Shown piece after piece: positions 19,029 to 44,022 of a DNA stretch of 52,635 nt. The stretch covers positions 42,061-94,695 of the forward strand of contig NZ_JWID01000007.1 in NCBI RefSeq assembly GCF_001466305.1, in the 5' to 3' direction. How positions within the stretch are numbered: the stretch's first letter is position 1; every line of letters begins with the position of its first letter. The stretch is from Defluviitalea phaphyphila. GTDB taxonomy: Bacteria > Bacillota > Clostridia > Lachnospirales > Defluviitaleaceae. Position numbers and translations under genes: made by a program. The notes beneath the pieces are model-generated. The model saw nothing but the letters and a program-made list of their open reading frames with translations. It was not told the origin of the DNA and ran no database searches.

Positions 19029-20813
19029 ATGGGAGAAACAATGTTAGGCTTAAAAAGAACTCATTATTGCATCAAAATAAAGGAAAATTTAATTGATGAA
19101 GAAGTAGTAGTAATGGGATGGGTGCAAAAAAGAAGAAATTTAGGAAGTTTAATATTTATTGATTTAAGAGATAGAAGTGGAATCGTTCAAGTAGTTTTTG
19201 ATGAAAAAGATATAGATGAAGAAGGATTTAAAAAAGCAGAAACTTTAAGAAGTGAATTTGTAATAGCAGTAAAAGGAATAGTAAGAAAAAGAGAAAGTGT
19301 TAATCCCAATATGGAAACAGGATATGTAGAAATTATTGCAAAAGAACTTCGCATACTTTCAGAATCAGAAACACCACCTTTTGCTATAGAAGAAAATAGT
19401 TCTGTAAAAGAAGATTTACGTCTTAAATATAGATATTTAGATCTTAGAAGACCTGATCTTCAAAGAAACTTAATGCTTCGTCATAGAGTTGCCCAATCTG
19501 TTAGAAATTTTTTAGATAATGAAGGATTTTTAGAAATAGAAACTCCAATGTTAGCTAAAAGTACTCCTGAAGGAGCTAGAGATTATCTTGTTCCTAGTCG
19601 TGTTCATCCAGGAAGCTTTTATGCTCTTCCTCAATCTCCACAAACTTTTAAACAATTATTAATGGTATCTGGATTTGACAGATATTTTCAAATTGTAAAA
19701 TGTTTTAGAGATGAAGATTTAAGAGCAGATAGACAACCAGAATTTACTCAAATAGATATGGAACTATCTTTTGTAGAAGTAGATGATGTTATAGATATAA
19801 ATGAAAGACTTTTACAAAAAGTATTTAAAGATGCTATAGGAATAGATATTCCTTTACCTATTCCAAGATTAACATATCAAGAAGCTATGGATAGATTTGG
19901 AAGTGACAAGCCAGATATCCGTTTTGGAATTGAACTTCAAGATATTTCTGATATAGTGAAAAATAGTGGATTTAGGGTATTTGAAGAAGCTATAGCTAAT
20001 GGTGGCAGTGTAAGAGGAATAAACGGAAAATCATGTGGAAATTTTTCAAGAAAACAAATTGATTCTTTAGTAGAAGTCGGAAAGACTTATGGAGCAAAAG
20101 GGATTGCATGGCTTGCAATCAAAGAAGATGGTAGTATAAAATCTAGTTTTACTAAATTTTTATCAGAAGAAATAGTAAACGAAATTATAAAAGCTATGGA
20201 TGGACAACCAGGAGATTTATTACTTTTTTGTGCAGATAAAAATTCTGTTGTATATGATGCTCTAGGAAATCTTAGATTAGAAATAGCAAAAAGATTAGAA
20301 TTAACTAAAAAAGATGATTATTCTTTCGTATGGATAACAGAATTTCCTCTTCTTGAGTGGAATGAAGAAGAAAAAAGATATGTAGCTAAACATCACCCTT
20401 TTACTATGCCCATGGATGAAGATATAGATCTTTTAGATACCGACCCAGGGAAGGTAAGAGCAAAAGCCTATGATATTTGTCTTAATGGAGTGGAAATTGG
20501 AGGAGGAAGTATTCGTATTCATCAACAAGATGTACAAGAAAAAATGTTTAATGCATTAGGATTTACTAAAGAAGAAGCATATGAAAATTTTGGATTTTTA
20601 CTTAATGCTTTTAAATATGGAGTTCCACCTCATGGAGGATTAGCTTATGGACTTGATAGAATGGTTATGATTATGGCTAGAGAAGATAGTATAAGAGATG
20701 TAATAGCTTTTCCTAAAGTAAAAGATGCCTCTTGCCCAATGACAGAAGCTCCAGGAAATGTGTCTGAAAAGCAGCTAGATGAATTAGGATTAAAAATAAA
20801 TATAAAAAAATAA
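19029..20813 (+). CDS. aspS: aspartyl-tRNA synthetase
   Basis: Bacterial-type class II AspRS of 594 aa. Domains: N-terminal OB-fold anticodon-binding (GWVQKRRNLGSLIFIDLRDR), catalytic core with motif 2 FRDEDLRADRQPEFTQID and QSPQTFKQLLMVSGFDR, the GAD insertion (residues 300-420), and motif 3 GLAYGLDRMVMIM. It follows hisS by 31 nt, with AAGGAGG before the ATG. Whether it is discriminating or also charges tRNA-Asn cannot be settled from this window. Usual partner of hisS in Firmicute operons. Confidence 0.96.
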   Translation: MGETMLGLKRTHYCIKIKENLIDEEVVVMGWVQKRRNLGSLIFIDLRDRSGIVQVVFDEKDIDEEGFKKAETLRSEFVIAVKGIVRKRESVNPNMETGYVEIIAKELRILSESETPPFAIEENSSVKEDLRLKYRYLDLRRPDLQRNLMLRHRVAQSVRNFLDNEGFLEIETPMLAKSTPEGARDYLVPSRVHPGSFYALPQSPQTFKQLLMVSGFDRYFQIVKCFRDEDLRADRQPEFTQIDMELSFVEVDDVIDINERLLQKVFKDAIGIDIPLPIPRLTYQEAMDRFGSDKPDIRFGIELQDISDIVKNSGFRVFEEAIANGGSVRGINGKSCGNFSRKQIDSLVEVGKTYGAKGIAWLAIKEDGSIKSSFTKFLSEEIVNEIIKAMDGQPGDLLLFCADKNSVVYDALGNLRLEIAKRLELTKKDDYSFVWITEFPLLEWNEEEKRYVAKHHPFTMPMDEDIDLLDTDPGKVRAKAYDICLNGVEIGGGSIRIHQQDVQEKMFNALGFTKEEAYENFGFLLNAFKYGVPPHGGLAYGLDRMVMIMAREDSIRDVIAFPKVKDASCPMTEAPGNVSEKQLDELGLKINIKK

Positions 20814-20870
20814 TAACTCCTCAGATTATATAAAAATATTGTCATATAATTCAAAAATATGTTAATATAT

Positions 20871-20899
20871 TCTATATAAGAAAAGAATTTTTATATAGA
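20871..20899. repeat. AT-rich inverted repeat after aspS
   Basis: TCTATATAA / TTATATAGA, 9 bp, with an 11-nt spacer, followed 5 nt later by CTTTTTTATTTTATTTT. It could be a weak terminator of the rel-aspS transcript or part of the promoter of the next gene. Confidence 0.4.
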
Positions 20900-20966
20900 T
20901 CAGACTTTTTTATTTTATTTTAGTATATTTAAGTGAGAGAATAGTTAGATGCAGGAGGAGTTATTT

Positions 20967-21605
20967 ATGAATAATAAAAAACTTAAGATATTAATCGGAT
21001 TTATTTTAGTATTTGCTGGTTTATATTCTTTAATGTATCAGTTTATTGAATTACCTATTATTAATATTGAAAATCTAACTATGTTGATACTATCAGGAGC
21101 TTTTTTAATTTTGTATTATAAGAAAAATAAAATATGGGCATTAATAATTGGAATAATACTTGGCTTTTTTAGTATTGTAAATCTTATTAAGGTAGACTAT
21201 CTATTTACTGTTTTTATGCCTTCTATAATTATAATAGCAGGATTAATTTTAATAAAAATATATTATTCAAAGAAAAATATTGAATATTTAATATTTGGTT
21301 CAATATTATTTTGGTTTGGTATATTTGTTACGTTAGTATTAAATAAAGTAATAAAAATGAATAACATTCCTGATGTATTTTTTGTAAGTATAGGAATGGT
21401 ATTTATTACAATGTACGTTTTAGGACGTCCTATAATAGAAAAATGGGCTTTATTGCTTGGAATAGTATTTATTATTTTAGGAGTTATACTATTTGTAGGT
21501 ATTTCCCTTGATTTTATATTTATTTATTTACCAATAATAATTCCTATTATTTTAGTATTAGTGGGTATATTTATAATTTTATATAATAGTCGTAAAGAAC
21601 AATGA
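20967..21605 (+). CDS. multi-pass membrane protein of unknown function
   Basis: A 212-aa protein made almost wholly of hydrophobic segments, about seven predicted helices, separated by short Lys-rich turns (YYKKNKIW, YYSKKNIE, NSRKEQ at the end). Its short two-helix units (ILIGFILVFAGLYSL; LLGIVFIILGVILF) resemble LiaI/LiaF-like small membrane domains, but no soluble LiaF domain is present. The ATG at 20967 has GGAGGAG at 6 nt and is preferred over an upstream in-frame ATG at 20949. It stands between aspS and tcdA. I do not recognise a function. Confidence 0.7.
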   Translation: MNNKKLKILIGFILVFAGLYSLMYQFIELPIINIENLTMLILSGAFLILYYKKNKIWALIIGIILGFFSIVNLIKVDYLFTVFMPSIIIIAGLILIKIYYSKKNIEYLIFGSILFWFGIFVTLVLNKVIKMNNIPDVFFVSIGMVFITMYVLGRPIIEKWALLLGIVFIILGVILFVGISLDFIFIYLPIIIPIILVLVGIFIILYNSRKEQ

Positions 21606-21613
21606 ATATATAT

Positions 21614-21642
21614 TTGACAGGTAAACTCGGAAATATTAAAAT
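21614..21642 (+). promoter_or_regulatory. sigma-A promoter of tcdA
   Basis: TTGACA, 17 nt, TAAAAT, 35 nt upstream of the tcdA start. Confidence 0.75.
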
Positions 21643-21677
21643 AACTGTAGCATTATAAATTAACAAGGAGAGAAATT

Positions 21678-22436
21678 ATGCTACATTCATTTTCGAGAAC
21701 AGAGCTTCTTTTAGGTAAAGAAGCTATGGAAAAATTGTACAAAAGTAAAGTTGCTGTATTTGGAGTAGGAGGAGTAGGAAGTTTTGTAGTAGAGGGATTA
21801 GTTCGCTCTGGAATAGGTAAATTTATTCTTATAGATGATGATTCAGTATGTTTAACGAATATAAATCGTCAACTTCATGCTACTAGAAAAACAGTTGGGA
21901 AACCTAAAGTGGAAGTAATGAAACAAAGGATTTTAGAAATAAATCCTAAGGCAGAAGTACAAATTCATCAAACATTTTTCTTACCAGAAAATTCTGATAA
22001 AATCATAGATGATGATTGTGATTATATAGTAGATGCTATTGATACAGTAACGGGAAAAATAGAGCTTGTTCTTCAAGCTAAGAAAAAAAATATTCCTATT
22101 ATAAGTTGTTTAGGAGCAGGAAATAAATTAGACCCTACAAAGTTTGAAGTAGATGATATTTATAATACATCTATATGTCCACTGGCTAAAGTAATGAGAA
22201 AAGAATTAAGAAAAAGAGGAATAGATTCTTTAAAAGTAGTTTATTCTAAAGAGATACCTATTAAACCAAGAGAAGAAGAAGTAACTACTTGTAAAGAAGG
22301 GTGTATTTGCACGAATAAAGATAGGACTTGTTTAGAAAAGAGACAAATTCCAGGAAGTGTTTCTTTTGTGCCTTCAGTTGCTGGTTTAATTATTGCAGGA
22401 GAAGTAATCAAAGATTTAATTTCATGGAGGCGATAA
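21678..22436 (+). CDS. tcdA: tRNA threonylcarbamoyladenosine dehydratase (ThiF/E1-like)
   Basis: ATP-dependent cyclisation of t6A37 to ct6A in ANN-decoding tRNAs. The 252-aa protein has the E1-like nucleotide motif GVGGVGSFVVEGLVRSGIG (residues 28-46), then DDDSVCLTNINRQLHA, the conserved VDAIDTVTGK, and PSVAGLIIAGEVI at the C-terminus, the layout of TcdA/YgdL rather than MoeB or ThiF. A Cys-rich stretch (CKEGCICTNKDRTC) near residue 215 is an addition seen in clostridial forms. The stop is followed after 1 nt by the RseC-like gene, so the two are probably cotranscribed. Confidence 0.87.
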   Translation: MLHSFSRTELLLGKEAMEKLYKSKVAVFGVGGVGSFVVEGLVRSGIGKFILIDDDSVCLTNINRQLHATRKTVGKPKVEVMKQRILEINPKAEVQIHQTFFLPENSDKIIDDDCDYIVDAIDTVTGKIELVLQAKKKNIPIISCLGAGNKLDPTKFEVDDIYNTSICPLAKVMRKELRKRGIDSLKVVYSKEIPIKPREEEVTTCKEGCICTNKDRTCLEKRQIPGSVSFVPSVAGLIIAGEVIKDLISWRR

Positions 22437-22437
22437 T

Positions 22438-22869
22438 ATGGAGGATAAAGAAACAGGAAGGGTAATAAGTATAAAAGATAGATATGCTATTGTTAGTATG
22501 GAAAGAAATGAAGCTTGCAAAAAATGTGGAGCTTGTAGCCATGGGCATAAAACAGAAGAAATGATTTTAGAAGTAGATAATATTTGTAATGCTAGTGTTG
22601 GAGATATAGTTAAAATTGATTTAGCTTATTCAGATTTTCTTAGGGCTGCGTTTATTATGTATGGAATACCTCTTATAATGTTATTTATAGGCTTTTTTGC
22701 CGGATATTATGGTTGTGTTATTTTAGAATATTCTAATATAAGAGAGCCTATGGGAATTCTTGGGGCATTCTTATTTATGACTATTAGTTTTTCTTGGATT
22801 CATTTTAAAGAATCAAAATGGAAAAAACAAAATTATCGTCCTGCAGCAGTAGAAATTATAGAAAAATAA
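22438..22869 (+). CDS. RseC/MucC-like membrane protein
   Basis: A 143-aa protein of the SoxR-reducing/RseC family. The N-terminal cytoplasmic domain holds a CxxCxxC motif (CKKCGAC, residues 24-30) and the pattern VKIDLAYSDFLRAAFIMYGIP, followed by two transmembrane helices (about 62-84 and 95-118) and a short basic tail. In proteobacteria relatives act with Rnf on SoxR or sigma-E; in Clostridia the family is often near rnf, but none is here. It begins 1 nt after tcdA with GGAGGCG inside the tcdA end. Confidence 0.8.
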   Translation: MEDKETGRVISIKDRYAIVSMERNEACKKCGACSHGHKTEEMILEVDNICNASVGDIVKIDLAYSDFLRAAFIMYGIPLIMLFIGFFAGYYGCVILEYSNIREPMGILGAFLFMTISFSWIHFKESKWKKQNYRPAAVEIIEK

Positions 22870-22881
22870 ATAATAAAGAAC

Positions 22882-22924
22882 AAACCTCCTATCACTTCAT
22901 ATAATAATGAAGGAAGGGGGTTTT
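22882..22924 (+). promoter_or_regulatory. hairpin that ends in the ribosome binding site of the next gene
   Basis: AAACCTCC ... CTTCAT ataata ATGAAG ... GGGGGTTTT can fold into a two-part stem with a small internal loop. Its 3' arm is the Shine-Dalgarno region GGAAGGGGG (22912-22920) of the gene starting at 22929, and it is followed by TTTT. It may end the tcdA-rseC transcript and also mask the ribosome site. Confidence 0.55.
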
Positions 22925-22928
22925 ATTT

Positions 22929-23309
22929 ATGAATAAAAAGGCAATTCATTATTATAATAAAGGATATAATTGTTCTCAATGTATTCTAAAAGCGGCAGAA
23001 GAATATTTTAATTTAAAAGTACCCAAAGAATGTTATGATTTATGTAAAGGAATAAATGTAGGATTAGGGATAGGAAGTACTTGTAGTGTTATAGAGGCTG
23101 CTACTATGATTTTTGGACTTATGTTTGATGAAAGAACAGTAAAAATACTTAGGATAAAATTTATTGATAAATTTCAAAAAGAATATGGAGTAGTTAATTG
23201 TAGTCAATTAAGAAAAATAAGAAATAAATATGGAAATTGCCGTATAATAATAGAAAAATCGGCTATAATTATAAAAGAATTGATAGAAAAAAATAAAAAG
23301 ATTTTTTAA
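22929..23309 (+). CDS. C_GCAxxG_C_C-type redox protein, divergent
   Basis: A 126-aa protein of the small Cys-rich C_GCAxxG_C_C family (DUF5714/TIGR01909-like). Visible are the N-terminal YYNKGYNCSQCILKA, which is the usual first Cys block, then GLGIGSTCSVIEAATMIFGL, which stands where the family normally has G-G-x-C-G-A-x-x-G, and later NCSQLR and NCRIII. The central signature is altered (CSVIEAA), so this is a divergent member. The family is thought to bind redox metal clusters; its role is unknown. The ribosome site lies inside a hairpin. Its last codons overlap the convergent gene by 4 bp. Confidence 0.7.
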   Translation: MNKKAIHYYNKGYNCSQCILKAAEEYFNLKVPKECYDLCKGINVGLGIGSTCSVIEAATMIFGLMFDERTVKILRIKFIDKFQKEYGVVNCSQLRKIRNKYGNCRIIIEKSAIIIKELIEKNKKIF

Positions 23310-24814
23310 TCAGTATTTTCTTCTTCAAAACTAAATAATCTTTTTAAAAGAGAAGATTTATTTTTCTTTGAAGTTGTATTTTTGGTATCTGTTGTAATAA
23401 TTAAGGGTGCTTTTCTAAGTTCTAATTCTTGTTTTAATATATTCATACCTTTTCTTTGAGCGGTAATTTTTTCTCCTAATATTTTTATTTCATTATTTTT
23501 TTGAGCAAGTTCTTTTTCTAGATTTTTATTTTTATTTTTTAAATTGGTGATTTCTTTTTGTAATTTTTCATTCATTTTTTTAAAATCATAAGTGATTTTT
23601 GATAAATCTTGTTTTTTTATTTTAAGAGTGTATTTTAGTTGAGATATTTGATTGTTTTTTTCTCTTAATTCTTTTTTACATAAATAAATTTCTTCATAAA
23701 CTTGTTTTATATGAGATTTTATTTCATTTAAATAATTATCTACTTTTTCTGTAGGAACAATAAAGTTTTCTTCTAAATTAATTGTATTTCCAGTAATAGC
23801 AGGGAATATGTCTGGTATAATTAAAAATTCTAAATTTTCACTAGAATTAATATATATTTCGTTAGTAAATAAATGTTTTTTTTCTTCAAGAACATTATTT
23901 TGATAATGAGCTTTAATAGGAATTAACGTGCGTTCGTTAATATATGCTGTAGGAGGAGAGAATGTATTTCCCGAATCTGTTGAATAACAGCTATATAATG
24001 TTCCATCACAAACCCAGGTAGCCCATAAATGATTATCAATGGTAAATAATGAACAAGAAGTTATATTGCTTTTTTCAAATAATTTTATAGGTTCTTCCCA
24101 TTTAGATGCAGTTTTTAATCTGTAAAACAATGTAGAATAATATTTTTCTTTTTTGATATATAGAGTTTGAAAATTTTTATTAATTATAAGAATAGATTTG
24201 TCTACAAATTTAGTTTTATTATGGTCAAAAGAAGAAAATTCACTCCATGTTTTTGTTGTTTCTAAGTACTTTTTATATCCTAATTGAAATGTGTCTTGAT
24301 ATTTTTGATAAAATAATAGTATGTTATTATTAGAAGTTTTATATACAGAAAAGGGATGATTTTCTAAAGGCTCAATATAGTCTATAAGAGAAGGAGTATT
24401 CCATTTAGTTCCTTTTATTGCTATCTGTTGAACTAAAGCATGACGATTAGTATGAGGGTCCTTTAAATTATAGAATAGAAAGAGGTCTTCGCCATTAATT
24501 ATAGCGTCAAAATGAAGAGAATCTAAAAAACCACTTTTACTATATAAAAGTATTTGAGAAGTCCATTTAGAAGATGAATATTGACATAATACGATATTTC
24601 CAGAAGTATCTTGACAAAATACATAGATTTTATCATTAGTGTCTAAATATACAGAAAAATTTTTAGCTCCATTCTTGTATATTATTTGTTTTTTAGACCA
24701 AGAGTCGTAGGTATAAGTCATACAGCATATACCATCTACAAAGTCATAGAAAAAAGCCCATAAAGTACCTTTGCTTTGTTTTATAATATAGTAATTTGAT
24801 CTTTCTTTTGTCAT
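23306..24814 (-). CDS. Asp-box beta-propeller-like protein with C-terminal coiled coil (paralogue A)
   Basis: A 502-aa protein without a signal peptide. Residues 1-330 are beta-rich with repeated short strands ending in aromatic residues, and contain one clear Asp-box, STDSGNTF (278-285), the S-x-D-x-G-x-T-F motif of sialidase-like propellers. Residues 357-467 form a long coiled coil rich in Lys/Glu/Asn, followed by a basic tail (SKKNKSSLLKRLF). No sialidase catalytic residues could be identified. It is paralogous to the gene at 24929-26248: LWATWVCDGTLY and STDSGNTFSPP line up with LWINWNENGTLK and SIDNGNTFSSP. Its place beside Cys-rich genes with sigma-K-like promoters suggests a spore-surface or assembly role (inference). 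Confidence 0.7.
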   Translation of the reverse strand: MTKERSNYYIIKQSKGTLWAFFYDFVDGICCMTYTYDSWSKKQIIYKNGAKNFSVYLDTNDKIYVFCQDTSGNIVLCQYSSSKWTSQILLYSKSGFLDSLHFDAIINGEDLFLFYNLKDPHTNRHALVQQIAIKGTKWNTPSLIDYIEPLENHPFSVYKTSNNNILLFYQKYQDTFQLGYKKYLETTKTWSEFSSFDHNKTKFVDKSILIINKNFQTLYIKKEKYYSTLFYRLKTASKWEEPIKLFEKSNITSCSLFTIDNHLWATWVCDGTLYSCYSTDSGNTFSPPTAYINERTLIPIKAHYQNNVLEEKKHLFTNEIYINSSENLEFLIIPDIFPAITGNTINLEENFIVPTEKVDNYLNEIKSHIKQVYEEIYLCKKELREKNNQISQLKYTLKIKKQDLSKITYDFKKMNEKLQKEITNLKNKNKNLEKELAQKNNEIKILGEKITAQRKGMNILKQELELRKAPLIITTDTKNTTSKKNKSSLLKRLFSFEEENTD

Positions 24815-24894
24815 AAATTTATCTTCCTCTCTATTTGTGGATGAGATGGGTACTCATGCATATTTTATATAAAATTATATTATTCATCTGTATA

Positions 24895-24924
24895 ATATAT
24901 ATGATGTATTAAATAAAAATAGTA
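24895..24924 (-). promoter_or_regulatory. possible sigma-K-like promoter for the gene at 23306-24814
   Basis: Read on the minus strand: TACT, 17 nt, CATATATAT, about 80 nt before the start codon. It matches the sigma-K form (ACx, 15-17 nt, CATAnnnTA) less well than the four promoters on the plus strand. Confidence 0.35.
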
Positions 24925-24928
24925 CAAC

Positions 24929-26248
24929 CTATTTTTTAGAAGATAAATTTTCTTTTTTAGTTTCCATAGATTTTTCTAATTGTTTTGCTCTTTTTTTATA
25001 GAATTCCACTTCAGTTTTTGCTTCTTTATATAGAGTTCTCCATTTTTTTCCTTCTTCTTGAATTTTTTTTGTAAGAGAAACAAGTTCATTATATTTATTA
25101 GTGATTTCAGTTTGTATTTCATTTAATTCCATAATATTATTTTTTAGTTTAGAATTTTCCTCTTCTAATTCTGATTTTGAAACAGAAAGTTTAAGTTGGT
25201 CTTTAATACTATTAATATATAGTTTTAATTCTACATTAGGGAGTAGGTCAGAATGAATACCATCAATATCTAAATTATGTAGTATAGAAAATTTAGGAGT
25301 GGGATGAGTTAAGCCATACAATTGATTACAAATGATAGGAATATTTATGTTTTTAGATAAACAATAAAAATGAATATCAACATTAGAATCTTGCATAGAA
25401 GTACGAATAGGAGATGAAAAGGTATTGCCATTATCAATTGATAAAATTGCTTTTAAAGTACCATTTTCATTCCAATTAATCCATAATGAATCATAATATA
25501 TAAAAATAATAGGTTTAATTTTATGACCACAGGAATACAGAAGATGCTCTTTTGACCATTTACCATTTGTTTTATTTTTATAAATTAATTGATATTGACC
25601 ATATTCTTCCTTAATGTATGACAAATGATATATTCCTTTTTCATCTATACATAATTTGCAGTGAGTAATTGGGAAAGATGAAAAAACAGGAGAAGAATCC
25701 TTTTCCCATTGAAAGGTATTAGAATTTAATAAATTGATATTAATAACATAATTATTTTTTTCTTTATTAATCATGGCGAGAAAGAGATTGTCATTATATT
25801 TAATACAATCATAATTTACATTAAAACTAGAAATGTTACCAAGAGGTTTAGGTATAGCAAAATTTTTATCTAATAGATTATAAATTAGTTGAGGATTTTT
25901 AGTAGCAGGATGATTAGCATAGTAAAATAGATGAATTTTATTATTGAGAGATATAGCATAAATATTGTTTATTTTAAATTCATTATTATAATCTTCTAAT
26001 ATAATATCTTTTGATATTTTATTAGAAGATTCTTTAAAATATACAATTTGGTTTTTAATATTTTTAGCTATAATATGAAAAGAATCATTTTCATCTAAAC
26101 AAGCAGTATATTCATCAGTTCCATTAGATAATAACAAACTAGGTCTATAAATTTGGGATTGTTTAAAAGTTTGATAATATAAGCCGTTTCTTTTAGTATA
26201 ATTTACCATTAAAAGACTTTTGTCTGAAAGTTGTAAAAAACAGGACAT
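24929..26248 (-). CDS. Asp-box beta-propeller-like protein with C-terminal coiled coil (paralogue B)
   Basis: A 439-aa protein with the same layout as its downstream neighbour: a beta-rich domain (1-330), an Asp-box SIDNGNTF (270-277), and a coiled coil at about 340-435 ending in a Lys/Ser-rich tail. No signal peptide, membrane segment or known catalytic motif is visible. GGAGGTAAATC precedes the ATG. A 114-nt gap separates it from paralogue A, and it is divergent from the Cys-rich gene at 26377. The pair probably arose by tandem duplication. Function unknown; a structural role in the spore coat or in binding glycans is only a suggestion from the fold and the neighbours. Confidence 0.7.
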   Translation of the reverse strand: MSCFLQLSDKSLLMVNYTKRNGLYYQTFKQSQIYRPSLLLSNGTDEYTACLDENDSFHIIAKNIKNQIVYFKESSNKISKDIILEDYNNEFKINNIYAISLNNKIHLFYYANHPATKNPQLIYNLLDKNFAIPKPLGNISSFNVNYDCIKYNDNLFLAMINKEKNNYVININLLNSNTFQWEKDSSPVFSSFPITHCKLCIDEKGIYHLSYIKEEYGQYQLIYKNKTNGKWSKEHLLYSCGHKIKPIIFIYYDSLWINWNENGTLKAILSIDNGNTFSSPIRTSMQDSNVDIHFYCLSKNINIPIICNQLYGLTHPTPKFSILHNLDIDGIHSDLLPNVELKLYINSIKDQLKLSVSKSELEEENSKLKNNIMELNEIQTEITNKYNELVSLTKKIQEEGKKWRTLYKEAKTEVEFYKKRAKQLEKSMETKKENLSSKK

Positions 26249-26313
26249 GATTTACCTCCTACAAAATTTTTATCATATTATATATATTCTTAAAATTATT
26301 ATTTATGTTTGGT

Positions 26314-26342
26314 AACAAAGTCGACATTTTTCACATAGTATA
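26314..26342 (+). promoter_or_regulatory. sigma-K-like promoter of the Cys-rich gene at 26377
   Basis: AACA, 16 nt, CATAGTATA: a full match to the mother-cell sigma-K consensus (ACx, 15-17 nt, CATAnnnTA). It lies 35 nt upstream of the start codon. Confidence 0.65.
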
Positions 26343-26376
26343 TAATGAAATTGAAATTTTTAAGGAGGTAAAAATT

Positions 26377-27324
26377 ATGTCAAATTGTGGCAACACTCAA
26401 TTTAGAGGGAAAATATTGCAAAGACCAACAGCAGGGGAATGTCCTGTATGTAATCCAGACGATATAAACCCAGCAGAAGACGCTTGTGTATGCCCACCAT
26501 TAGGAGAACCAAAATTATTAACAGTAGCAGCACCTGTTGTATTTGATGAATGTGGAATTAATCTTTGTAGAGTAGTTGATGATTTAAATTGTGTATTCCC
26601 AGATGTGGATTTTGAAGATGATGATGTAGCAGCAATAGAACTTAAAGTTATTGACATTGATTTTAATTTTGATAAGGACGATGGGTCGAAGGTAGAAACA
26701 TTAACAAGAAGACCAAATTGTGTAAGGGTTACTCTTGAAAATATTGATGTTACCTTTGCAGCTAAAGTATTAGATTCTGATTGTAAAGTTATTGATGAAG
26801 AATGTTTTACTATTAAATATTTACCTGGAGATGCAGACGATCCATATTTTGATGATGATACTAATCCTATTTCAGTTGCTGTAGATGTATATGCACCATA
26901 TGGAGTTTCCTATGAACTTAAGAGAGATTGTACTCCTATTATTAGTTTTTTAGGATTTGTTGAAGATGGCTGTAGAAAAGATAGTGGAAATAATTCAATT
27001 CGTCAAGGTATTGTTGCTCAAGCTTTAGCTAAAGTAGTAAATCTTGATGTTGATTCTCAAACAGCAGCTATAGGACTTACTATTTATCTCAAAGCTATTT
27101 ACTTTGTACAATATAGAATTCCTCATAAAGGACTTTGTGTTCCACCTAAATGTATTCCTGTGGATGTTGAAGCAGAAAACGCTTGTCTTGAATTTGTTGA
27201 AGGAGATTTACTTGAACAAAGTATTCAACCTTTAGAACTTTGCTGTAAACCAAAATCCTTTGAACATGGATGCCTGCCAGTACAAGACCCAACTCCTTCT
27301 GAAGACTGTGCAAGGAAAAGATAA
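26377..27324 (+). CDS. Cys-rich protein of unknown function, putative spore-surface protein (long form 1)
   Basis: A 315-aa acidic protein with 20 cysteines, no signal peptide and no membrane helix. It opens with MSNCGNTQFRGKI and a Cys-rich stretch (CPVCNPDD, CVCPP), then two beta-rich segments, and ends with KGLCVPPKCIPVDVEAENAC, CC and C-rich residues. The C-terminal third is alignable by eye with the next gene (KGFCIPNECVEISPVNPC). The start at 26377 has AAGGAGG at 8 nt; the frame is open upstream to 26305 but that part crosses the promoter. Own promoter and own terminator. I do not recognise the family; the promoter type and Cys content suggest a cross-linked spore coat or exosporium protein. 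Confidence 0.7.
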   Translation: MSNCGNTQFRGKILQRPTAGECPVCNPDDINPAEDACVCPPLGEPKLLTVAAPVVFDECGINLCRVVDDLNCVFPDVDFEDDDVAAIELKVIDIDFNFDKDDGSKVETLTRRPNCVRVTLENIDVTFAAKVLDSDCKVIDEECFTIKYLPGDADDPYFDDDTNPISVAVDVYAPYGVSYELKRDCTPIISFLGFVEDGCRKDSGNNSIRQGIVAQALAKVVNLDVDSQTAAIGLTIYLKAIYFVQYRIPHKGLCVPPKCIPVDVEAENACLEFVEGDLLEQSIQPLELCCKPKSFEHGCLPVQDPTPSEDCARKR

Positions 27325-27350
27325 GGAATGGTATCTACCATTCCTTTTTT
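27324..27350 (+). terminator. terminator after the gene at 26377
   Basis: AGGAATGGTA tc TACCATTCCT followed by TTTTTT. Confidence 0.85.
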
Positions 27351-27378
27351 ATATTTTTAAATTTTTTCTACATAATGT

Positions 27379-27406
27379 CACACAATTTTTACCATTACAT
27401 ATTATG
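27379..27406 (+). promoter_or_regulatory. sigma-K-like promoter of the Cys-rich gene at 27465
   Basis: CACA, 15 nt, CATATTATG. It matches the sigma-K form except for the last base of the -10. It lies 58 nt upstream of the start codon. Confidence 0.5.
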
Positions 27407-27464
27407 ATATTGAGATAAAAAATAGTTAATTATAATTTAAAGTTATATGGAAAGGAGAAGTAGT

Positions 27465-28280
27465 ATGGATGGGAAAATAAAAGATGAATGTATTATTGCC
27501 TTAAAGGTATACGATCATTGTAGACAACAAGATTGCCTAACGCCTGAAATGCTAGAAAAACCATTTTCATTAGAATGTACAGAATGTCAAACAGAAGGAG
27601 GACATATTATTGCTGCAGGGAAGGGATATCCTATTACTGTACCTAAAGAAGCAGTAGATATTACAATAGATGATTTTAGAATCAGTAAGATTGAAACAGA
27701 AAGAAAAAAGGACCCATTAAGAAAAAATTATTACAATGTATATGTAAAATTTATATTTGAATTTAAGTTAAAATTTGTAGATGCAACAGGAGAATTTATT
27801 GAAATTAATTGTGATGGCACAGAAAAAGAATATATTATGGCAGGAACATCCTTCAAAAAATCAGTTTTACTTTTTGGAAGTGAAGGGTCTGAAATTACTA
27901 TAGCAAGCAATTTATTTACGCCAGAATCCCATGTTTTAGAAGAAGCACCTTATGTATTAGTAGAAGCTAAAGCTATGCTCTTAGATGCACAATTAAATAA
28001 TATTTCAAATCCAATAGGATGTGATTGTGACTGCGAAATGCTAGATGACATTAATTTAACTGTAGGATTATTTACTATAATTAAATTATTTAGAATAGTT
28101 AATCTAATGGTTGAATCTAAAGGCTTCTGTATTCCTAATGAATGTGTTGAAATATCACCAGTTAATCCATGTGACATATTTGATAATATGGAATTTCCAT
28201 ATGATATTTTTAACCCTCCACAAAAAGATGAGGTTGTAGAAGAAGAAAAGATAATTTATAAAACTTGTAAAGAAGAATAA
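27465..28280 (+). CDS. Cys-rich protein of unknown function, putative spore-surface protein (long form 2)
   Basis: A 271-aa protein with 13 cysteines (ECTECQTEGG, GCDCDCEML, FCIPNEC) and no signal peptide. A beta-rich middle (VYVKFIFEFKLKFVDATGE) and the hydrophobic stretch LTVGLFTIIKLFRIVNLMV lead to KGFCIPNECVEISPVNPC, which parallels the C-terminal part of the gene at 26377. It ends with an acidic/basic tail (KDEVVEEEKIIYKTCKEE). The ATG at 27465 follows AAAGGAG at 7 nt; an in-frame ATG at 27447 has no ribosome site. Flanked by its own promoter and terminator. Not a family I can name. Confidence 0.7.
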   Translation: MDGKIKDECIIALKVYDHCRQQDCLTPEMLEKPFSLECTECQTEGGHIIAAGKGYPITVPKEAVDITIDDFRISKIETERKKDPLRKNYYNVYVKFIFEFKLKFVDATGEFIEINCDGTEKEYIMAGTSFKKSVLLFGSEGSEITIASNLFTPESHVLEEAPYVLVEAKAMLLDAQLNNISNPIGCDCDCEMLDDINLTVGLFTIIKLFRIVNLMVESKGFCIPNECVEISPVNPCDIFDNMEFPYDIFNPPQKDEVVEEEKIIYKTCKEE

Positions 28281-28290
28281 GAATTTTTAA

Positions 28291-28320
28291 ATTGCTCCTT
28301 AAAAGGAGTAATTTTTTTTT
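28291..28320 (+). terminator. terminator after the gene at 27465
   Basis: ATTGCTCCTT aa AAGGAGTAAT followed by T9. Confidence 0.85.
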
Positions 28321-28350
28321 CATATTATAAAAATTTATGTCGAATGTTGT

Positions 28351-28379
28351 AACAAAATATAAGATTGTCTCATAAGATA
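28351..28379 (+). promoter_or_regulatory. sigma-K-like promoter of the gene at 28413
   Basis: AACA, 16 nt, CATAAGATA: a full match to the sigma-K consensus, with the same box and spacing as the promoter at 26314. It lies 34 nt upstream of the start codon. Confidence 0.65.
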
Positions 28380-28412
28380 TAGTGAAACATTTTATAAAGG
28401 AGGGTTGTTATA

Positions 28413-28913
28413 ATGAGTTGCATGGATAAAAAGTTAATAGGAAAAGGAGTTGCATACCAATTAGAAACAATTGGAGAAATATTAAAAAATTGCTGCTGTG
28501 GGATTATGTGTAAATTAAAAAAGATAAGAGGGACTTGTATTTGTGAAACACAATCATCTGATAATTTAGAAAATGCAACTGAGCAAATTATAATTACTAT
28601 TGATAAAGAAGAAGTATTGATAACTAAGATATGCGCATCCTTTTTCAAATTTGTAGAGGGAACATCTACAGAAACTAGTATAGGAATTATTACAGTTAAA
28701 GATGCAGACAACAACATTGTTTTTGAAGATGCATTTGGAGATGATTTAACTAATACAGGAATAGAACATTATGAAACAACATTTATGCATCCATTATTAA
28801 TAAAAGGACCTGTAACAATAGAACTTTCTTTCTTATTACTTGGAGCTACCAATACGTCAGTAGCTAAACAAGGTACATTAAGTGTTGTATATAGCAAAGA
28901 ATCTGCTATGTAA
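28413..28913 (+). CDS. short beta-rich protein of unknown function, putative spore-surface protein (short form 1)
   Basis: A 166-aa protein. The N-terminal 55 residues carry most of the 8 cysteines, including a CCC run (ILKNCCCGIMCKLKKIRG, then CICET). Residues 65-165 look like one beta-sandwich of alternating strands (EEVLITKICASFFKF, ETSIGIITVKDADN, HPLLIKGPVTIEL, GTLSVVYS). This second part aligns by eye with the C-terminal domain of the next gene (AVKITAIYASYTG, YPLLVVPPPGQWVEV). No signal peptide. AAAGGAGGG precedes the ATG. No terminator is visible after it, but the next gene has its own promoter. Confidence 0.68.
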   Translation: MSCMDKKLIGKGVAYQLETIGEILKNCCCGIMCKLKKIRGTCICETQSSDNLENATEQIIITIDKEEVLITKICASFFKFVEGTSTETSIGIITVKDADNNIVFEDAFGDDLTNTGIEHYETTFMHPLLIKGPVTIELSFLLLGATNTSVAKQGTLSVVYSKESAM

Positions 28914-28950
28914 TTATTAAATATTTTTATCAATAATCAATATTCATAAA

Positions 28951-28978
28951 TACACTAATTTTGATAAGTTATAGTGTA
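28951..28978 (+). promoter_or_regulatory. sigma-K-like promoter of the gene at 29008
   Basis: TACA, 15 nt, TATAGTGTA. The -10 differs from CATAnnnTA only at the first base. It lies 29 nt upstream of the start codon. Confidence 0.45.
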
Positions 28979-29007
28979 AAATATTATTAAATGAAAGGAG
29001 AGTATTT

Positions 29008-29568
29008 ATGGGATATAAAGATAGAAAATCATTAAAATTATGTGCTGGGAAAGACAAAGATTGTGATTGGGAAGCTATACTAGAGGCTTTAGGAAATCCA
29101 GAAGATTGTACTGATCAATCCATTATACAATTATTGTGTGATATAGCACAAAATCTTCCAATAGATATTGATTTAACAGAAATAATAGATCTTTTAACTC
29201 AGATTCTAGATAGCCTAGGAGGAGGTATAAGTGATTCTACTGGTCAAACATCAGATACTGGAATTATAACATATTCCCCTGATGAAGCTGTTAAGATTAC
29301 TGCAATCTATGCTTCATATACAGGAGGAGGAGCACTAGCATCAGGAATTGAAGTAGACATTGTAACAACTGATGGAACAACCTCTACACCTATATGTAAA
29401 TTCAATGCAATAAATATCCCTACTGCTCAAGGAGGAAATTTTGCAACTAATTTAATTTATCCATTATTAGTTGTTCCTCCTCCAGGACAATGGGTTGAAG
29501 TTCATGCTAGTGTATCTAATGGAGATGGAAGTGAGAATGTTCTTCTTACTGTATTAAACGCTATATAA
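29008..29568 (+). CDS. short beta-rich protein of unknown function, putative spore-surface protein (short form 2)
   Basis: A 186-aa protein. Residues 1-70 are helical and acidic with 5 cysteines over the protein (CAGKDKDCDWEAIL, NPEDCTDQSIIQLLC), including an amphipathic repeat of Leu/Ile (IDLTEIIDLLTQILDSLGGG). Residues 85-186 form a beta-sandwich-like domain parallel to that of the previous gene (VKITAIYASYTGGG, GIEVDIVTTDGTT, LIYPLLVVPPPGQWVEVHA). No signal peptide. AAAGGAG lies 7 nt before the ATG. It is the last gene of the island, closed by a strong terminator. Function unknown. Confidence 0.68.
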   Translation: MGYKDRKSLKLCAGKDKDCDWEAILEALGNPEDCTDQSIIQLLCDIAQNLPIDIDLTEIIDLLTQILDSLGGGISDSTGQTSDTGIITYSPDEAVKITAIYASYTGGGALASGIEVDIVTTDGTTSTPICKFNAINIPTAQGGNFATNLIYPLLVVPPPGQWVEVHASVSNGDGSENVLLTVLNAI

Positions 29569-29575
29569 ATAACTT

Positions 29576-29612
29576 AACTTAAATAGGGGCGAATTGCTCC
29601 TATTTAAGTTTT
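29576..29612. terminator. strong bidirectional terminator closing the island
   Basis: AACTTAAATAGGGGC gaatt GCTCCTATTTAAGTT, a long stem with one mismatch, followed by TTATT and preceded by an A-rich flank. It serves the gene at 29008 and the convergent NlpC/P60 gene. Confidence 0.88.
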
Positions 29613-30340
29613 ATTATGGACACAGCAGTTACATAAGTTTTTTGATAATAAGTTTGGGATAAATTATCTATTTTAACTCCATTTGAAGTTGCGTGAATAA
29701 TCTTATTATCCCCTATATACAGAGCTACATGGGATATTTTTCCATTATTACTACCATAAGTATCAAAAAATACTAAATCTGCAGGTTTTAGATTTTCTTT
29801 TTTTATAGGAATACCATTTTTAATTTGGTCTTTAGAGCATCTATTTAATAAGATATTAAATTTTTTCATAACTGATTGGGTAAATCCTGAACAGTCAACA
29901 CCATGTTTTAAGTTGGTTCCACCATATCGATAGGGGGTTCCTAAAAACTGTTTAGCATAGTTTACAATTTCCCAACGTAGAATATTTTCCTTTGTTTTTT
30001 TGTCTACTTCAGGAATTAAATAAAGGGGATATGCATCTAAATACATATAGTAAATCCAAGCACTTTTATCTTTATATTTTACCTGATACCACTTATTATA
30101 TTTCCCTGTAACTATTAAATTAGTATATTTATCACATACTCCAAGAATTTTAGAATTTGGATAAGGATATTCTCTAATATTTATTCCATTTTCATTTACC
30201 ATTCCCCAAGTATATTTAAAGGATGTAGTATAAGTAGACGTAGAGTTATTTGTATTTCCATAAATCAAAGAGTTATTCGCAAATAATATTATTAAAGAAA
30301 AGATCATAATTTTGATTTTAAAAAAATTTAATTTTTTCAT
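29600..30340 (-). CDS. secreted SH3-NlpC/P60 peptidoglycan hydrolase
   Basis: A 246-aa exported endopeptidase. A basic N-terminus and hydrophobic segment (about residues 10-28) act as signal peptide. A bacterial SH3 domain follows (about 45-105; ENGINIREYPYPNSKILG, NKWYQVKYKDKSAWIYY), then the NlpC/P60 domain with catalytic Cys in GVDCSGFTQSVM, the His in SHVALYIGD and the polar third residue in IIHATSNG. It likely cuts the gamma-D-Glu-diamino acid bond in peptidoglycan. The start at 30340 is preferred over TTG 30352, since GGAGG lies 5 nt before it. It is convergent with the Cys-rich island; a role in spore cortex or germination is possible but not shown. Confidence 0.87.
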   Translation of the reverse strand: MKKLNFFKIKIMIFSLIILFANNSLIYGNTNNSTSTYTTSFKYTWGMVNENGINIREYPYPNSKILGVCDKYTNLIVTGKYNKWYQVKYKDKSAWIYYMYLDAYPLYLIPEVDKKTKENILRWEIVNYAKQFLGTPYRYGGTNLKHGVDCSGFTQSVMKKFNILLNRCSKDQIKNGIPIKKENLKPADLVFFDTYGSNNGKISHVALYIGDNKIIHATSNGVKIDNLSQTYYQKTYVTAVSIIKLK

Positions 30341-30487
30341 GTTGGCCTCCAATAAAACATTTTTTTATTTTGTTATTATGAGTAAAATGCTACCAAAATA
30401 TTCTCAAATATAATTATTTTATGTAGCATACATATAGATAAAGAATAGTATTATATTATAGAATTATTTATATAAGGAGGCTTTTTC

Positions 30488-30667
30488 TTGTATTTTAAAA
30501 GAATACCTTTTAGATTTAAAAAATACAAATCTAAGAAAAAAACAGAATTAAATAATACATCATTAGATAAAGAAAAAGAAGAAATAAACAAGGAAAATAT
30601 AACAGAAGATTCTACAGTAAAAGAATTAAATGAATATGTAGATGATGTAGAGGAAGATAAAGAATAA
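30488..30667 (+). CDS. 59-aa charged protein, TTG start
   Basis: Starts at TTG 30488, 7 nt after AAGGAGG, the best ribosome site in the area. The product begins MYFKRIPFRFKKYKSKKK, a very basic N-terminus, and turns acidic in the second half, ending YVDDVEEDKE. No membrane helix, no Cys. A terminator directly follows. Because the start is TTG and the frame is short it is easily missed. Not recognised; the strong ribosome site and own terminator support a real gene. Confidence 0.55.
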   Translation: MYFKRIPFRFKKYKSKKKTELNNTSLDKEKEEINKENITEDSTVKELNEYVDDVEEDKE

Positions 30668-30678
30668 TTTTTATTGTA

Positions 30679-30704
30679 GCCACCTATTTAGGTGGTTATT
30701 TTAT
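30679..30704 (+). terminator. terminator after the 59-aa gene
   Basis: GCCACCTA tt TAGGTGGT followed by TATTTTAT. Confidence 0.75.
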
Positions 30705-30842
30705 ATAAAAATTTATTTTAATCAAAAAATGTAGAAAATTATTGATTATATCTTTAATATAGTGATATTATATTAAAGTAAAGTGATAAAGCGATGATAT
30801 ATTTTTTACAAATAATTATTTAAGGGACCAAGATTTTCTTAA

Positions 30843-30872
30843 TTGTATTTATAAAAAAATATAAAATACAAA
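30843..30872. repeat. inverted repeat upstream of paaK
   Basis: TTGTATTT / AAATACAA, 8 bp, with a 14-nt AT spacer, 35 nt upstream of the paaK start. It could be an operator for the paaK-iorAB operon or a leader hairpin. The rest of the 239-nt gap from 30668 is AT-rich and shows no gene. Confidence 0.35.
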
Positions 30873-30906
30873 TTATTTTATAATTAATGAAAGAAGGAAG
30901 AAATAT

Positions 30907-32199
30907 ATGATTTGGTCTAAAGAAGAAACATTAGATAGGGAAGAAATTAGAAAAATTCAACTTAAAAGATTAAAAAGTACTATAAAAAGGGTATATGAAA
31001 AAGTGCCTTTTTATAGAAAAAGACTTGATGAAGCTGGAATTTCACCAGAAGATATTAATTCTTTAGATGATCTTAAGAAAATTCCTTTTACTGTAAAGGA
31101 TGATTTAAGAGAAAATTATCCCTTTGGATTATTTGCAGTAACAAAAAAGGAAGTAGTAAGGATACACGGTTCTTCTGGGACAACGGGAAAGCCAACTGTT
31201 GTTGGGTACACAAGAAATGATTTAAATACATGGACAGAGCTTACAGCTCGTATTGCAGCTATGGCAGGTGCTAGAGATGATGATATAGCTCAAATTGCTT
31301 TTGGATATGGATTATTTACAGGAGCTTTTGGACTTCATCAAGGACTTGAAAAAATAGGGGCTATGGTTGTTCCTATGTCGTCAGGAAATACTAAAAAACA
31401 AATTATGCTTATGAAAGATTTTGGGACGACCTTACTTATTAGTACTCCTTCTTATGCTCTTCATATGGCGGAAGTAGCAGAGGAGATGGGAATAAATCCA
31501 GCATCAGATTTAAAAGTGAGAATTGGATTGTTCGGAGGAGAAGGACATACAGAAGAATTTAGAAAAGAATTGGAAAATAAATGGGAAATGTTGGCTACTG
31601 AAAATTATGGTATGAGTGAATTAATTGGTCCTGGAGTTTCTGGAGAATGTCAATACAAATGTGGTATGCATATAGCAGAGGATCATTTTATAGCAGAAAT
31701 AATTGACCCTGATACGGGAGAAGTTCTTCCACCGGGTCAAAAAGGAGAACTTGTTGTAACTACTATTACAAAAGAAGCATTTCCTCTTCTTAGGTATAGA
31801 ACAAAGGATATAACATATTTAATAGAAGAACAATGTGAATGTGGAAGAACTTTGACTAGAATGGCAAAAGTACAAGGTAGAAGTGATGATATGTTAATAA
31901 TAAGAGGAGTAAATGTATTTCCATCACAAATTGAAAGTGTTTTAGTAGGGATGAAAGAAATAGGCCCTCATTATGAAATAATTGTAAAGAAGAAAGGTTA
32001 TTTAGATGTTTTAGAATTAAATGTAGAAGTTATAGATGGAAGTTTTTTAGAAAAATACAGCAAATTAGAAGCTTTAAAAGATAAAATTAGACGTAATTTA
32101 AGAACAGTTTTAGGTATTGATGCTAAAATAAATTTAGTAGAACCAAGAACTCTTAAAAGATTTGAAGGAAAGGCTAAAAGAGTTATAGATTTGCGATAG
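30907..32199 (+). CDS. paaK: phenylacetate-CoA ligase / aryl-acetate CoA ligase
   Basis: AMP-forming ligase, 430 aa. The adenylate motif is [16 protein letters not shown], then [19 protein letters not shown], the hinge region YRTKDITYL, a Cys pair set (CECGRT) and [19 protein letters not shown], all typical of PaaK. In anaerobic Clostridia and Archaea this ligase often accompanies indolepyruvate oxidoreductase; there it may work on aryl-acetates such as phenylacetate or indoleacetate, possibly in the direction of acid release with ATP or as a scavenger. iorA follows after 38 nt. GAAGGAAG precedes the ATG. Confidence 0.9.
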
Positions 32200-32237
32200 A
32201 TTTTATGTAATATTGACAATATATATGGAGGGATTAT

Positions 32238-42304: not shown

Positions 42305-43063
42305 TTATTCATTAATTAAGTTTTCCATATTATATAAACCAGGAGATTTATTTGCTAGAAATTTTGCAGCTTTTATAGCACCTACTGCAAATATTTCTTT
42401 AGACATTGCTGTATGTTTCAATTCTATAATTTCATCTTTGCCAGCAAAAAGTATTGAATGTTCTCCTACTATGGTTCCTCCTCTTACAGCATGAATACCT
42501 ATTTCTTTTTTACTTCTTTTTTGTCTTTCTTTATGTCTATCATACTTATATTTATAAGTATTATCTAAAGTTTCATTAATAGCATCTGCTAAAGCAAGAG
42601 CAGTGCCACTAGGAGCGTCTATTTTTTGATTATGATGTTTTTCTATGATTTCAATATCAAAGTTAGCATCTGATAATACTTCTGAGGCACGTTTTACTAA
42701 GTTTATTAATAAATTAACTCCAAGGGACATATTAGCAGAAAAAAATACAGGAATTTTTTCCGAAGCTTTTTTTACTAAGGTTAATAAATCATCTGATAAT
42801 CCAGTAGTACATACAACTACTGGTAGTTGTTTATTAAGGGCATATTCTATTAAAGGTTTTACTGCTGTTGCAGTGGAAAAATCTATAATAACATCACCAG
42901 TTATGTCACAGTCAGATATTTTACTAAAAACGGGATATGGATTAGATTTATTAACATTAGGGTCTATACCTGCAACAATAGTACAGTCATCACTATTTTC
43001 AACTAAATTAGAAATTACTTGCCCCATTTTTCCATTACATCCGTGCATAATAACTTTTATCAT
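42305..43063 (-). CDS. dapB: 4-hydroxy-tetrahydrodipicolinate reductase
   Basis: NAD(P)H-dependent reductase of lysine/diaminopimelate synthesis; 252 aa. The Rossmann motif is MHGCNGKMGQVISNLV, followed by VIIDFSTA, VVCTTGLSD, FSANMSLGVNLL and the substrate motif EKHHNQKIDAPSGTALALA with the catalytic His pair and Lys. The frame opens at 43108, but ATG 43063 has AAAGGAG at 8 nt and is typical. It is the third gene after asd and dapA but is separated from dapA by a terminator-like hairpin. Confidence 0.95.
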   Translation of the reverse strand: MIKVIMHGCNGKMGQVISNLVENSDDCTIVAGIDPNVNKSNPYPVFSKISDCDITGDVIIDFSTATAVKPLIEYALNKQLPVVVCTTGLSDDLLTLVKKASEKIPVFFSANMSLGVNLLINLVKRASEVLSDANFDIEIIEKHHNQKIDAPSGTALALADAINETLDNTYKYKYDRHKERQKRSKKEIGIHAVRGGTIVGEHSILFAGKDEIIELKHTAMSKEIFAVGAIKAAKFLANKSPGLYNMENLINE

Positions 43064-43081
43064 AATATAAACTCCTTTCGA

Positions 43082-43113
43082 AAAAAGTGCAGGGGAATAC
43101 CTCTGCACTTTTT
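43082..43113 (-). terminator. terminator/attenuator between dapA and dapB
   Basis: On the minus strand GTGCAGAGG tatt CCCCTGCAC followed by T6. It would reduce readthrough from dapA into dapB, or dapB may have its own weak promoter nearby. Confidence 0.75.
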
Positions 43114-43119
43114 AGTTTC

Positions 43120-44004: not shown

Positions 44005-44022
44005 AATACCCATCCTTTCTCA

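Follow-up and report, generated by a model that had tools for sequence, protein, structure and literature searches.

The closest described relative of the system reported here is CsxA, which makes up the crystalline layer of the exosporium in Clostridium sporogenes and is described as the structural constituent of its basal layer. The cited passages of PMC7333573 show csxA flanked by zapA and a U32 peptidase gene, together with glycosyltransferase and collagen-like genes, and describe a highly conserved open reading frame (ORF) running divergently from it; the protein has 299 amino acids (aa) and 25 Cys (PMC4942563, cited passage). ExsY/CotY of Bacillus and CdeC of C. difficile resemble it in their proposed assembly, as Cys-rich proteins, into resistant layers (PMC7333573 and PMC7677010, in the parts cited), though ExsY/CotY are analogous and not homologous to CsxA (PMC7333573, same passages), and we compare them by description only. 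Here we analyse a stretch of 52,635 nucleotides from Defluviitalea phaphyphila (the window) that carries an island of six adjacent genes: two for propeller proteins with a coiled coil (BpA1, BpA2), two for Cys-rich proteins (CysB1, CysB2) and two for small Cys-containing proteins (SandC1, SandC2). With a probability of roughly 0.7, we propose that the island represents a CsxA-type module in duplicate, belonging to the exosporium, the outer layer of the spore, and made of sheets and propeller stalks. What we computed is the relation of CysB2 to CsxA-like proteins, a predicted propeller fold, head-to-head gene pairing, co-occurrence with SpoIVA and promoter enrichment.

The island shares several traits with the csxA locus. 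CysB1 (315 aa, 20 Cys) and CysB2 (271 aa, 13 Cys) are also Cys-rich and of similar size, and both loci have a divergent neighbour and a further small Cys-rich gene nearby. They differ in that CysB1 and CysB2 are remote relatives, that the two modules of the island are interleaved, and that the island does not lie between zapA and U32; by eye, its ORFs at 20500-32500 include no collagen-like or glycosyltransferase gene. Nor are the SandC genes detectably related to DUF4489, the family found at csxA-like loci.

Results

Relation of the Cys-rich proteins to CsxA

Profile comparison makes CysB2 (27465..28280, plus strand) a distant relative of CsxA-like proteins. Aligned with hhalign to 33 CsxA-like Clostridiaceae proteins, the CysB2 profile scored 97.7% (E 1.3e-12, 248 columns), and reversed and 40 column-shuffled controls gave at most 1.1%. 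CysB1 (26377..27324, plus strand) reached 44.3% against the same proteins (E 2.3e-4; shuffles up to 4.9%), and 91.2% against a merged profile of CysB2 and the CsxA-like proteins (E 1e-6; reversed control 0.1%); plain comparison of the CysB2 and CysB1 profiles was weak (15.5% and 6.5%). Among 3200 neighbourhood ORFs, the CsxA-like profile found the CysB2 of the window at E 3.6e-9 and its CysB1 at E 2.2e-4. On these alignments, CysB1 probably represents a divergent branch of the superfamily to which CsxA belongs.

The 33 CsxA-like proteins were picked by the motif K-V/I-F-D/G-Q-C-L-I-K-R/K-C-L from fetched Clostridiaceae regions. A search with a C. hydrogenum protein had matched 72 of 200 Clostridiaceae genomes, many of them weakly, and regions were fetched from 40 of the 72. 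The link to CsxA itself comes from L260_11 (272 aa, 20 Cys), whose N-terminus, MAINSKDFIP, is the decapeptide that the published csxA forward primer specifies; this protein was not matched by the CysB1 model. The primer was found in none of 206 Clostridiaceae genomes at up to 3 mismatches, the source species of CsxA possibly not being among them.

Gene order around the relatives is also reminiscent of csxA. At three loci (L256, L257 and L258), zapA, a DUF4489-type gene, a CsxA-like gene, a divergent propeller gene and U32 lie in one stretch, and we infer that the divergent ORF described beside csxA is a propeller gene. In C. guangxiense (L103) and C. hydrogenum (L110), a U32 peptidase gene lies directly 3' of the CysB2 relative, with glycosyltransferase-like genes upstream of it in both and zapA in view in L110 only; these product names are in part our presumed assignments from sequence.

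The predicted model of CysB2 is fair (predicted local distance difference test, pLDDT, 81.5; predicted template modelling score, pTM, 0.75) and all-beta. Foldseek returned nothing at E ≤0.001 for it (best 0.035) and the top VIA row reached Z 2.6, which does not argue for a new fold. Searched by sequence against solved structures, CysB1, CysB2 and SandC2 had no match.

SipL/SPOCS was considered as an identity for the Cys-rich proteins because some CsxA-like hits lie in frames as long as SipL (518-532 aa). We rejected it: one such protein, L252_9, reads as a propeller-like N-terminal region followed by a CsxA-like C-terminal part, PF12673 is absent from Pfam scans of CysB1 and CysB2 to E 5, and the SipL model matches elsewhere in their own genome. 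L252_9 appears to be a natural propeller-CsxA fusion, whose propeller-like region has Pfam matches below cut-off only. It is one of two such proteins, of 514 and 528 aa at L252:9185-10729 and L266:9996-11582, that match the CsxA-like profile, and both genes stand head-to-head with a BpA-type gene. A few kb from the island of genome G001, L050:15199-16038 encodes 279 aa with a single SPOCS (SipL) domain.

Pairing of Cys-rich and propeller genes

The loci compared here are those that surround Cys or propeller hits. In them, the immediate 5' neighbour of the propeller gene was a divergent Cys gene in 27/49 cases in Clostridiaceae, 14/15 in the class set, 16/23 in the order set and 1/2 in the window, so that 58 of 89 propeller genes in the four sets stood head-to-head with a CsxA-superfamily gene. 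A further set of genome-contig loci, which overlaps the others, gave 5/11; it repeats several of the loci named by genome and is therefore not to be added to them. Three Cys genes have the propeller gene directly downstream instead.

In the window, BpA2 (24929..26248, minus strand) is head-to-head with CysB1 across a divergent intergenic region (26249..26376, no strand assigned) with blocks conserved among relatives in family f1, to which the window's genome (G000 in our handles) belongs. The same arrangement of a CysB1 and a BpA2-type gene recurs in eight loci from families other than f1 (L055-L062). A BpA1-type gene is head-to-head with CysB2 in G013, and most other CysB2 loci of the order have no propeller gene adjoining. 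The two modules of the window are interleaved, with BpA1 (23306..24814, minus strand) and BpA2 on one strand and CysB1 and CysB2 on the other.

We then compared partner type with the propeller tree (85 rows), parts of which several long branches leave unsure. Partner type needs 2 changes on it, the minimum possible, compared with 25.8 in shuffles: propellers with CsxA-type partners form one clade, those with CysB1-type partners another, and CysB2-type partners take 2 changes. BpA2 falls within the CysB1-partner clade (support 100/98). BpA1 belongs to a set of 30 rows (98/96) in which all 7 partnered rows have a CysB2-type partner and 23 have no counted partner, which makes BpA1, by family, the putative partner of CysB2. 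In our reading, the window holds two modules that are interleaved, BpA1/CysB2 and BpA2/CysB1, and in addition two small proteins restricted to the lineage.

The first-pass annotation had described the island as three paralogous pairs. All six ORFs lie where it placed them and the three pairs exist, yet it missed that the units recurring elsewhere are propeller/Cys modules. BpA1 and BpA2 match directly (22% identity over 472 columns, E 8e-16), and each has, as claimed, a C-terminal coiled coil and one Asp-box-like stretch (STDSGNTF and SIDNGNTF), which we take to be this motif. The direct match between CysB1 and CysB2 spans 38 aa only (E 3e-4), but they do share KG-x-C-x-P-x-x-C. For SandC1 and SandC2, direct BLAST failed (E 0.10), but the relatives L050_9/L051_4 match both, at 96.3% and 92.6%. 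A crude hydropathy scan is in line with the claimed lack of signal peptides, as it gave no hydrophobic stretch at the N-terminus such as the neighbouring NlpC/P60 gene product has.

Predicted fold of the propeller proteins

The AlphaFold2 model of BpA1 (13 sequences; pLDDT 79.7, pTM 0.64) is all-beta to about residue 331 and continues in a helix of 111 residues (356-466); the predicted propeller domain spans residues 1-335 approximately. Its best match in the PDB is a PLL lectin (Z 24.3, root-mean-square deviation 3.2, 302 aligned, 13% identity), and Foldseek gave E 5e-10. The first 18 VIA rows all belong to PLL/PHL lectins (Z 23.3-24.3), followed by BP39L (22.1) and polysaccharide lyases. The likeness to the Photorhabdus PLL/PHL lectins (PDB 8q7u, 8q82, 5mxf and others) is one of predicted fold of the N-terminal part, and the long fused helix sets BpA1 apart; a PLL-type fold in a model is not proof of sugar binding. 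BpA2, its paralogue with the same propeller and coiled-coil layout, gave coiled-coil matches only against solved-structure sequences.

An iterated propeller search converged on 100 of the 3200 ORFs, with matches mostly within the first 370 residues. None of the six island proteins matched a Pfam or NCBIfam model at cut-off, the best propeller lead below it being BNR_2 (17.9 bits; cut-off 31.4), and PHROGs matches were weak (best E 0.007); matches to phage or pilus families were among the findings that the first-pass annotation had named as refuting it. In the literature available to us, searches on CsxA, spore-coat propellers and DUF4489 turned up no paper that we recognised as a description of the propeller partner.

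At L260:10562-11808, the propeller match beside a CsxA-like gene is spread over two short ORFs. At L236, L237, L245 and L246, the propeller gene is closely preceded on its own strand by a gene for 383-421 aa; that of L236, which alone was scanned, had no Pfam match to E 0.1. In the single genus of L046-L049, a gene that we take to be citrate-synthase-like lies between BpA1 and BpA2 on the opposite strand.

Candidate promoters and terminators

We searched for sigma-factor patterns that we take to be the consensus. The sigK-type pattern AC-N16-18-CATANNNTA was present within 200 nucleotides upstream of 67/133 Cys-superfamily genes and 66/836 controls (Fisher 1e-29), and of none of the 89 propeller genes, the two of the window included. 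This count had demanded a 60-nucleotide gap of control genes only; with the gap rule applied to all genes and only their own intergenic space considered, the figures were 61/124 for Cys genes, 59/836 for controls and 0/77 for propellers. A strict sigE-like pattern was likewise found before 0/77 propeller genes, and a loose one before 17/77 compared with 53/836 controls, a mild enrichment. The propeller genes seem to be under control other than sigK, and the sigE-like hint is weak.

In the window, an own promoter had been claimed for each of the four plus-strand genes. This is borne out in part: CysB1 (26315..26342, plus strand, AC-N17-CATAGTATA) and SandC1 (28352..28379, plus strand, AC-N17-CATAAGATA) have strict, promoter-like AC-N17-CATANNNTA sites, and the other two do not. 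CysB2 is preceded by an imperfect sigK-type -10 (27398..27406, plus strand), CATATTATG, which has one mismatch and is identical in 6 compared rows; SandC2 has no strict match, although the 3 orthologues compared each have one (at -126, -65 and -63). The pattern occurs 10 times in 52.6 kb compared with 6.5 expected, so a lone site means little. The genome itself has a SigK match over the family cut-off. The three terminators proposed earlier are there: plus-strand terminator-like hairpins follow CysB1 (27323..27346), CysB2 (28289..28314) and SandC2 (29576..29610); 4 such sites were counted over both strands, with 1.4 expected.

Distribution and link to sporulation

Using a SpoIVA match as a stand-in for sporulation, we asked where the families occur. 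Among 57 genomes, the window's own included, CysB2 was found in 29, BpA-type genes in 22, CysB1 in 19, SandC2 in 5 (all f1) and SpoIVA in 46. In 393 genomes of the window's class, the profiles matched CysB2 in 170, propellers in 139 and SpoIVA in 288. SpoIVA is present in 165 of the 170 CysB2 genomes and 135 of the 139 propeller genomes, and 5 of the 105 genomes with no SpoIVA match have CysB2. The two families also co-occur among the genomes with SpoIVA: 102 have both, 63 CysB2 only, 33 the propeller only and 90 neither (Fisher 4e-9, ignoring shared descent). Carriers without SpoIVA are thus rare within the class (5/170 for CysB2, 4/139 for propellers), as the first-pass annotation had expected of proteins confined to spore-formers. 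In genomes G018 and G031, CysB2 homologues (L031:9154-10020 and L039:5741-6664) have spoIVA no farther away than about 0.5 and 2 kb.

The SandC proteins and neighbouring genes

SandC1 (28413..28913, plus strand; 166 aa, 8 Cys) and its paralogue SandC2 (29008..29568, plus strand; 186 aa, 5 Cys) have, read by eye, an N-terminal Cys cluster and an apparently beta-rich remainder. The SandC profile matched f1 loci only among the loci scanned, with no class-wide search, and solved-structure sequences gave one chance-level match (E 0.78). Like the small Cys-rich DUF4489 genes beside CsxA-like genes in Clostridiaceae, the SandC genes lie near Cys genes, here downstream of them, but a relation to DUF4489 (PF14879) was rejected: homology is undetectable (hhalign ≤0.5%, no Pfam hit). 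At L047:12851-14375 and L050:10221-11713, three tandem related-looking proteins of 155-169 aa are encoded beside a SandC gene; four of them were scanned and none matched at Pfam cut-off. They are possibly further spore-surface proteins.

A gene with SH3 and NlpC/P60 domains lies at the island edge (29600-30352) and is present in 7/7 f1 loci fetched; an NlpC/P60 protein is reported among the exosporium gel bands of C. sporogenes (PMC4942563, cited passage). Farther away, genes for DapB, DapA and aspartate-semialdehyde dehydrogenase are consecutive on the minus strand (42305-45015).

Materials and methods

Five loci that were not hit-centred (L303, L307, L308, L310, L312) were left out of the propeller search, the adjacency and promoter counts and the tree. 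L311, a repeat of L244, and L048, close to L047, were kept in the adjacency and promoter counts and left out of the tree. The genome-contig CysB2 loci are the best 80 of 114 relatives, and the ORF caller returned no CysB2 ORF at L089, L130 and L139. Alignment A1 is without L035 and L048, and alignment A5 draws on the window together with 68 of the 80 loci. Same-contig distances (n=47) were hand-picked among the matches listed and are descriptive only.

Discussion

The earlier proposal of a spore-surface module of Cys-rich and propeller/coiled-coil proteins gains from the CsxA relation, the tracking with SpoIVA and the sigK-type enrichment before Cys genes. Its description as undescribed, with no family recognised, is not supported: CsxA and its unnamed divergent neighbour had already been described (PMC7333573, cited passages).

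The steps that we infer concern spore location, sheet formation, tethering, sugar binding and the role of SandC. CysB1 and CysB2 would be made late in sporulation in the mother cell, with a sigK-type promoter serving CysB1 at the least. By analogy with CsxA, they would assemble as disulfide-linked sheets around the forespore. Each sheet protein would have its propeller partner, BpA2 for CysB1 as its head-to-head neighbour and BpA1 for CysB2 by family. The lectin-like propeller may bind the sheet or its sugars, and the coiled coil may form an oligomeric stalk by which the sheet is tethered to, or held at a distance from, the coat or another sheet next to it. SandC1 and SandC2, lineage-restricted and Cys-tailed, may serve to decorate or cross-link the sheet. 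A bolder and distinctly tentative idea is that the clostridial exosporium lattice has in the propeller/coiled-coil protein its missing partner, a lectin-like tether often encoded head-to-head with a type-matched sheet protein, and that genomes with two modules would build two stalk-joined sheets.

A number of observations weigh against the main reading, a doubled exosporium module. Pairing is far from universal when seen from the Cys genes: 27/54, 14/36, 16/43 and, in the window, 1/2 are paired with a divergent propeller gene, and these are not random samples because loci were fetched around hits; in the genome-contig loci, which mostly hold CysB2 genes from the wider order around the window, only 5/81 are paired. 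In f1, BpA1 and CysB2 are not neighbours, and G002 (98% complete) has BpA1, BpA2 and CysB1 but gave no hit for CysB2, an argument against any strict bond of BpA1 to CysB2. CysB1 is a weaker member of the CsxA superfamily than CysB2, and the CsxA link consists of ten primer-encoded residues, protein class and locus, not a deposited CsxA sequence. Only 2 of the 4 plus-strand genes in the window have a strict sigK-type site. No CysB2-profile hit was found in 35 of the 139 propeller genomes, and 123 of the 288 SpoIVA genomes lack CysB2; the co-occurrence counts, besides neglecting descent, cover the window's class. Finally, an exosporium in this organism is a prediction from its genes.

The alternative that fares best, although we hold it doubtful, makes the propellers assembly or glycan-recognition factors that serve the Cys-rich protein (a lectin or chaperone under another sigma factor) rather than structural tethers. 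It draws on the nearness of the fold to PLL lectins and carbohydrate-active propellers, on the lack of sigK-type sites before propeller genes with the loose sigE-like enrichment, and on the glycosyltransferase-like genes at the two Clostridium loci. Conversely, the strict sigE-like pattern is absent, no glycosyltransferase was recognised by eye among the ORFs adjoining the island, and the long helix suggests a structural role. We find it unlikely that the module belongs to the inner layer, the spore coat, with Cys-rich proteins cross-linking coat layers and propellers as coat scaffolds. SpoIVA genes near CysB2 homologues in G018 and G031 suit this location, as does the fact that an exosporium in the carriers studied here is a prediction from genes, and a sigK-type promoter would fit either layer, but the characterised relative, CsxA, is described as the structural constituent of the exosporium's basal layer (PMC7333573, cited passages).

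Rather improbable, in our view, is that SandC1 and SandC2 are subunits of ENA-kind spore appendage fibres, in which N-terminal Cys connectors extend from a beta domain (PMC12921279 and PMC11952670, cited passages). A short Cys-containing N-terminus before an apparently beta-rich remainder is a similar layout, known here from sequence, but Pfam scans contained no DUF3992 or DUF4183 (window proteins to E 5, two relatives to E 1). A general cell-surface or stress module outside sporulation is very improbable given the SpoIVA counts, the sigK-type enrichment and the CsxA-like relation, and the few carriers without a SpoIVA match are drafts in which gaps may explain some.

To return to the exosporium module, proteins of the clostridial outer spore layer have been described in few species in the literature that we examined. 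Our results suggest that the CsxA type, with relatives in 170 of the 393 sampled genomes of the class, often comes with a propeller/stalk partner that lacks a named family here, and they yield a short list of genes with which to address how this layer is attached.

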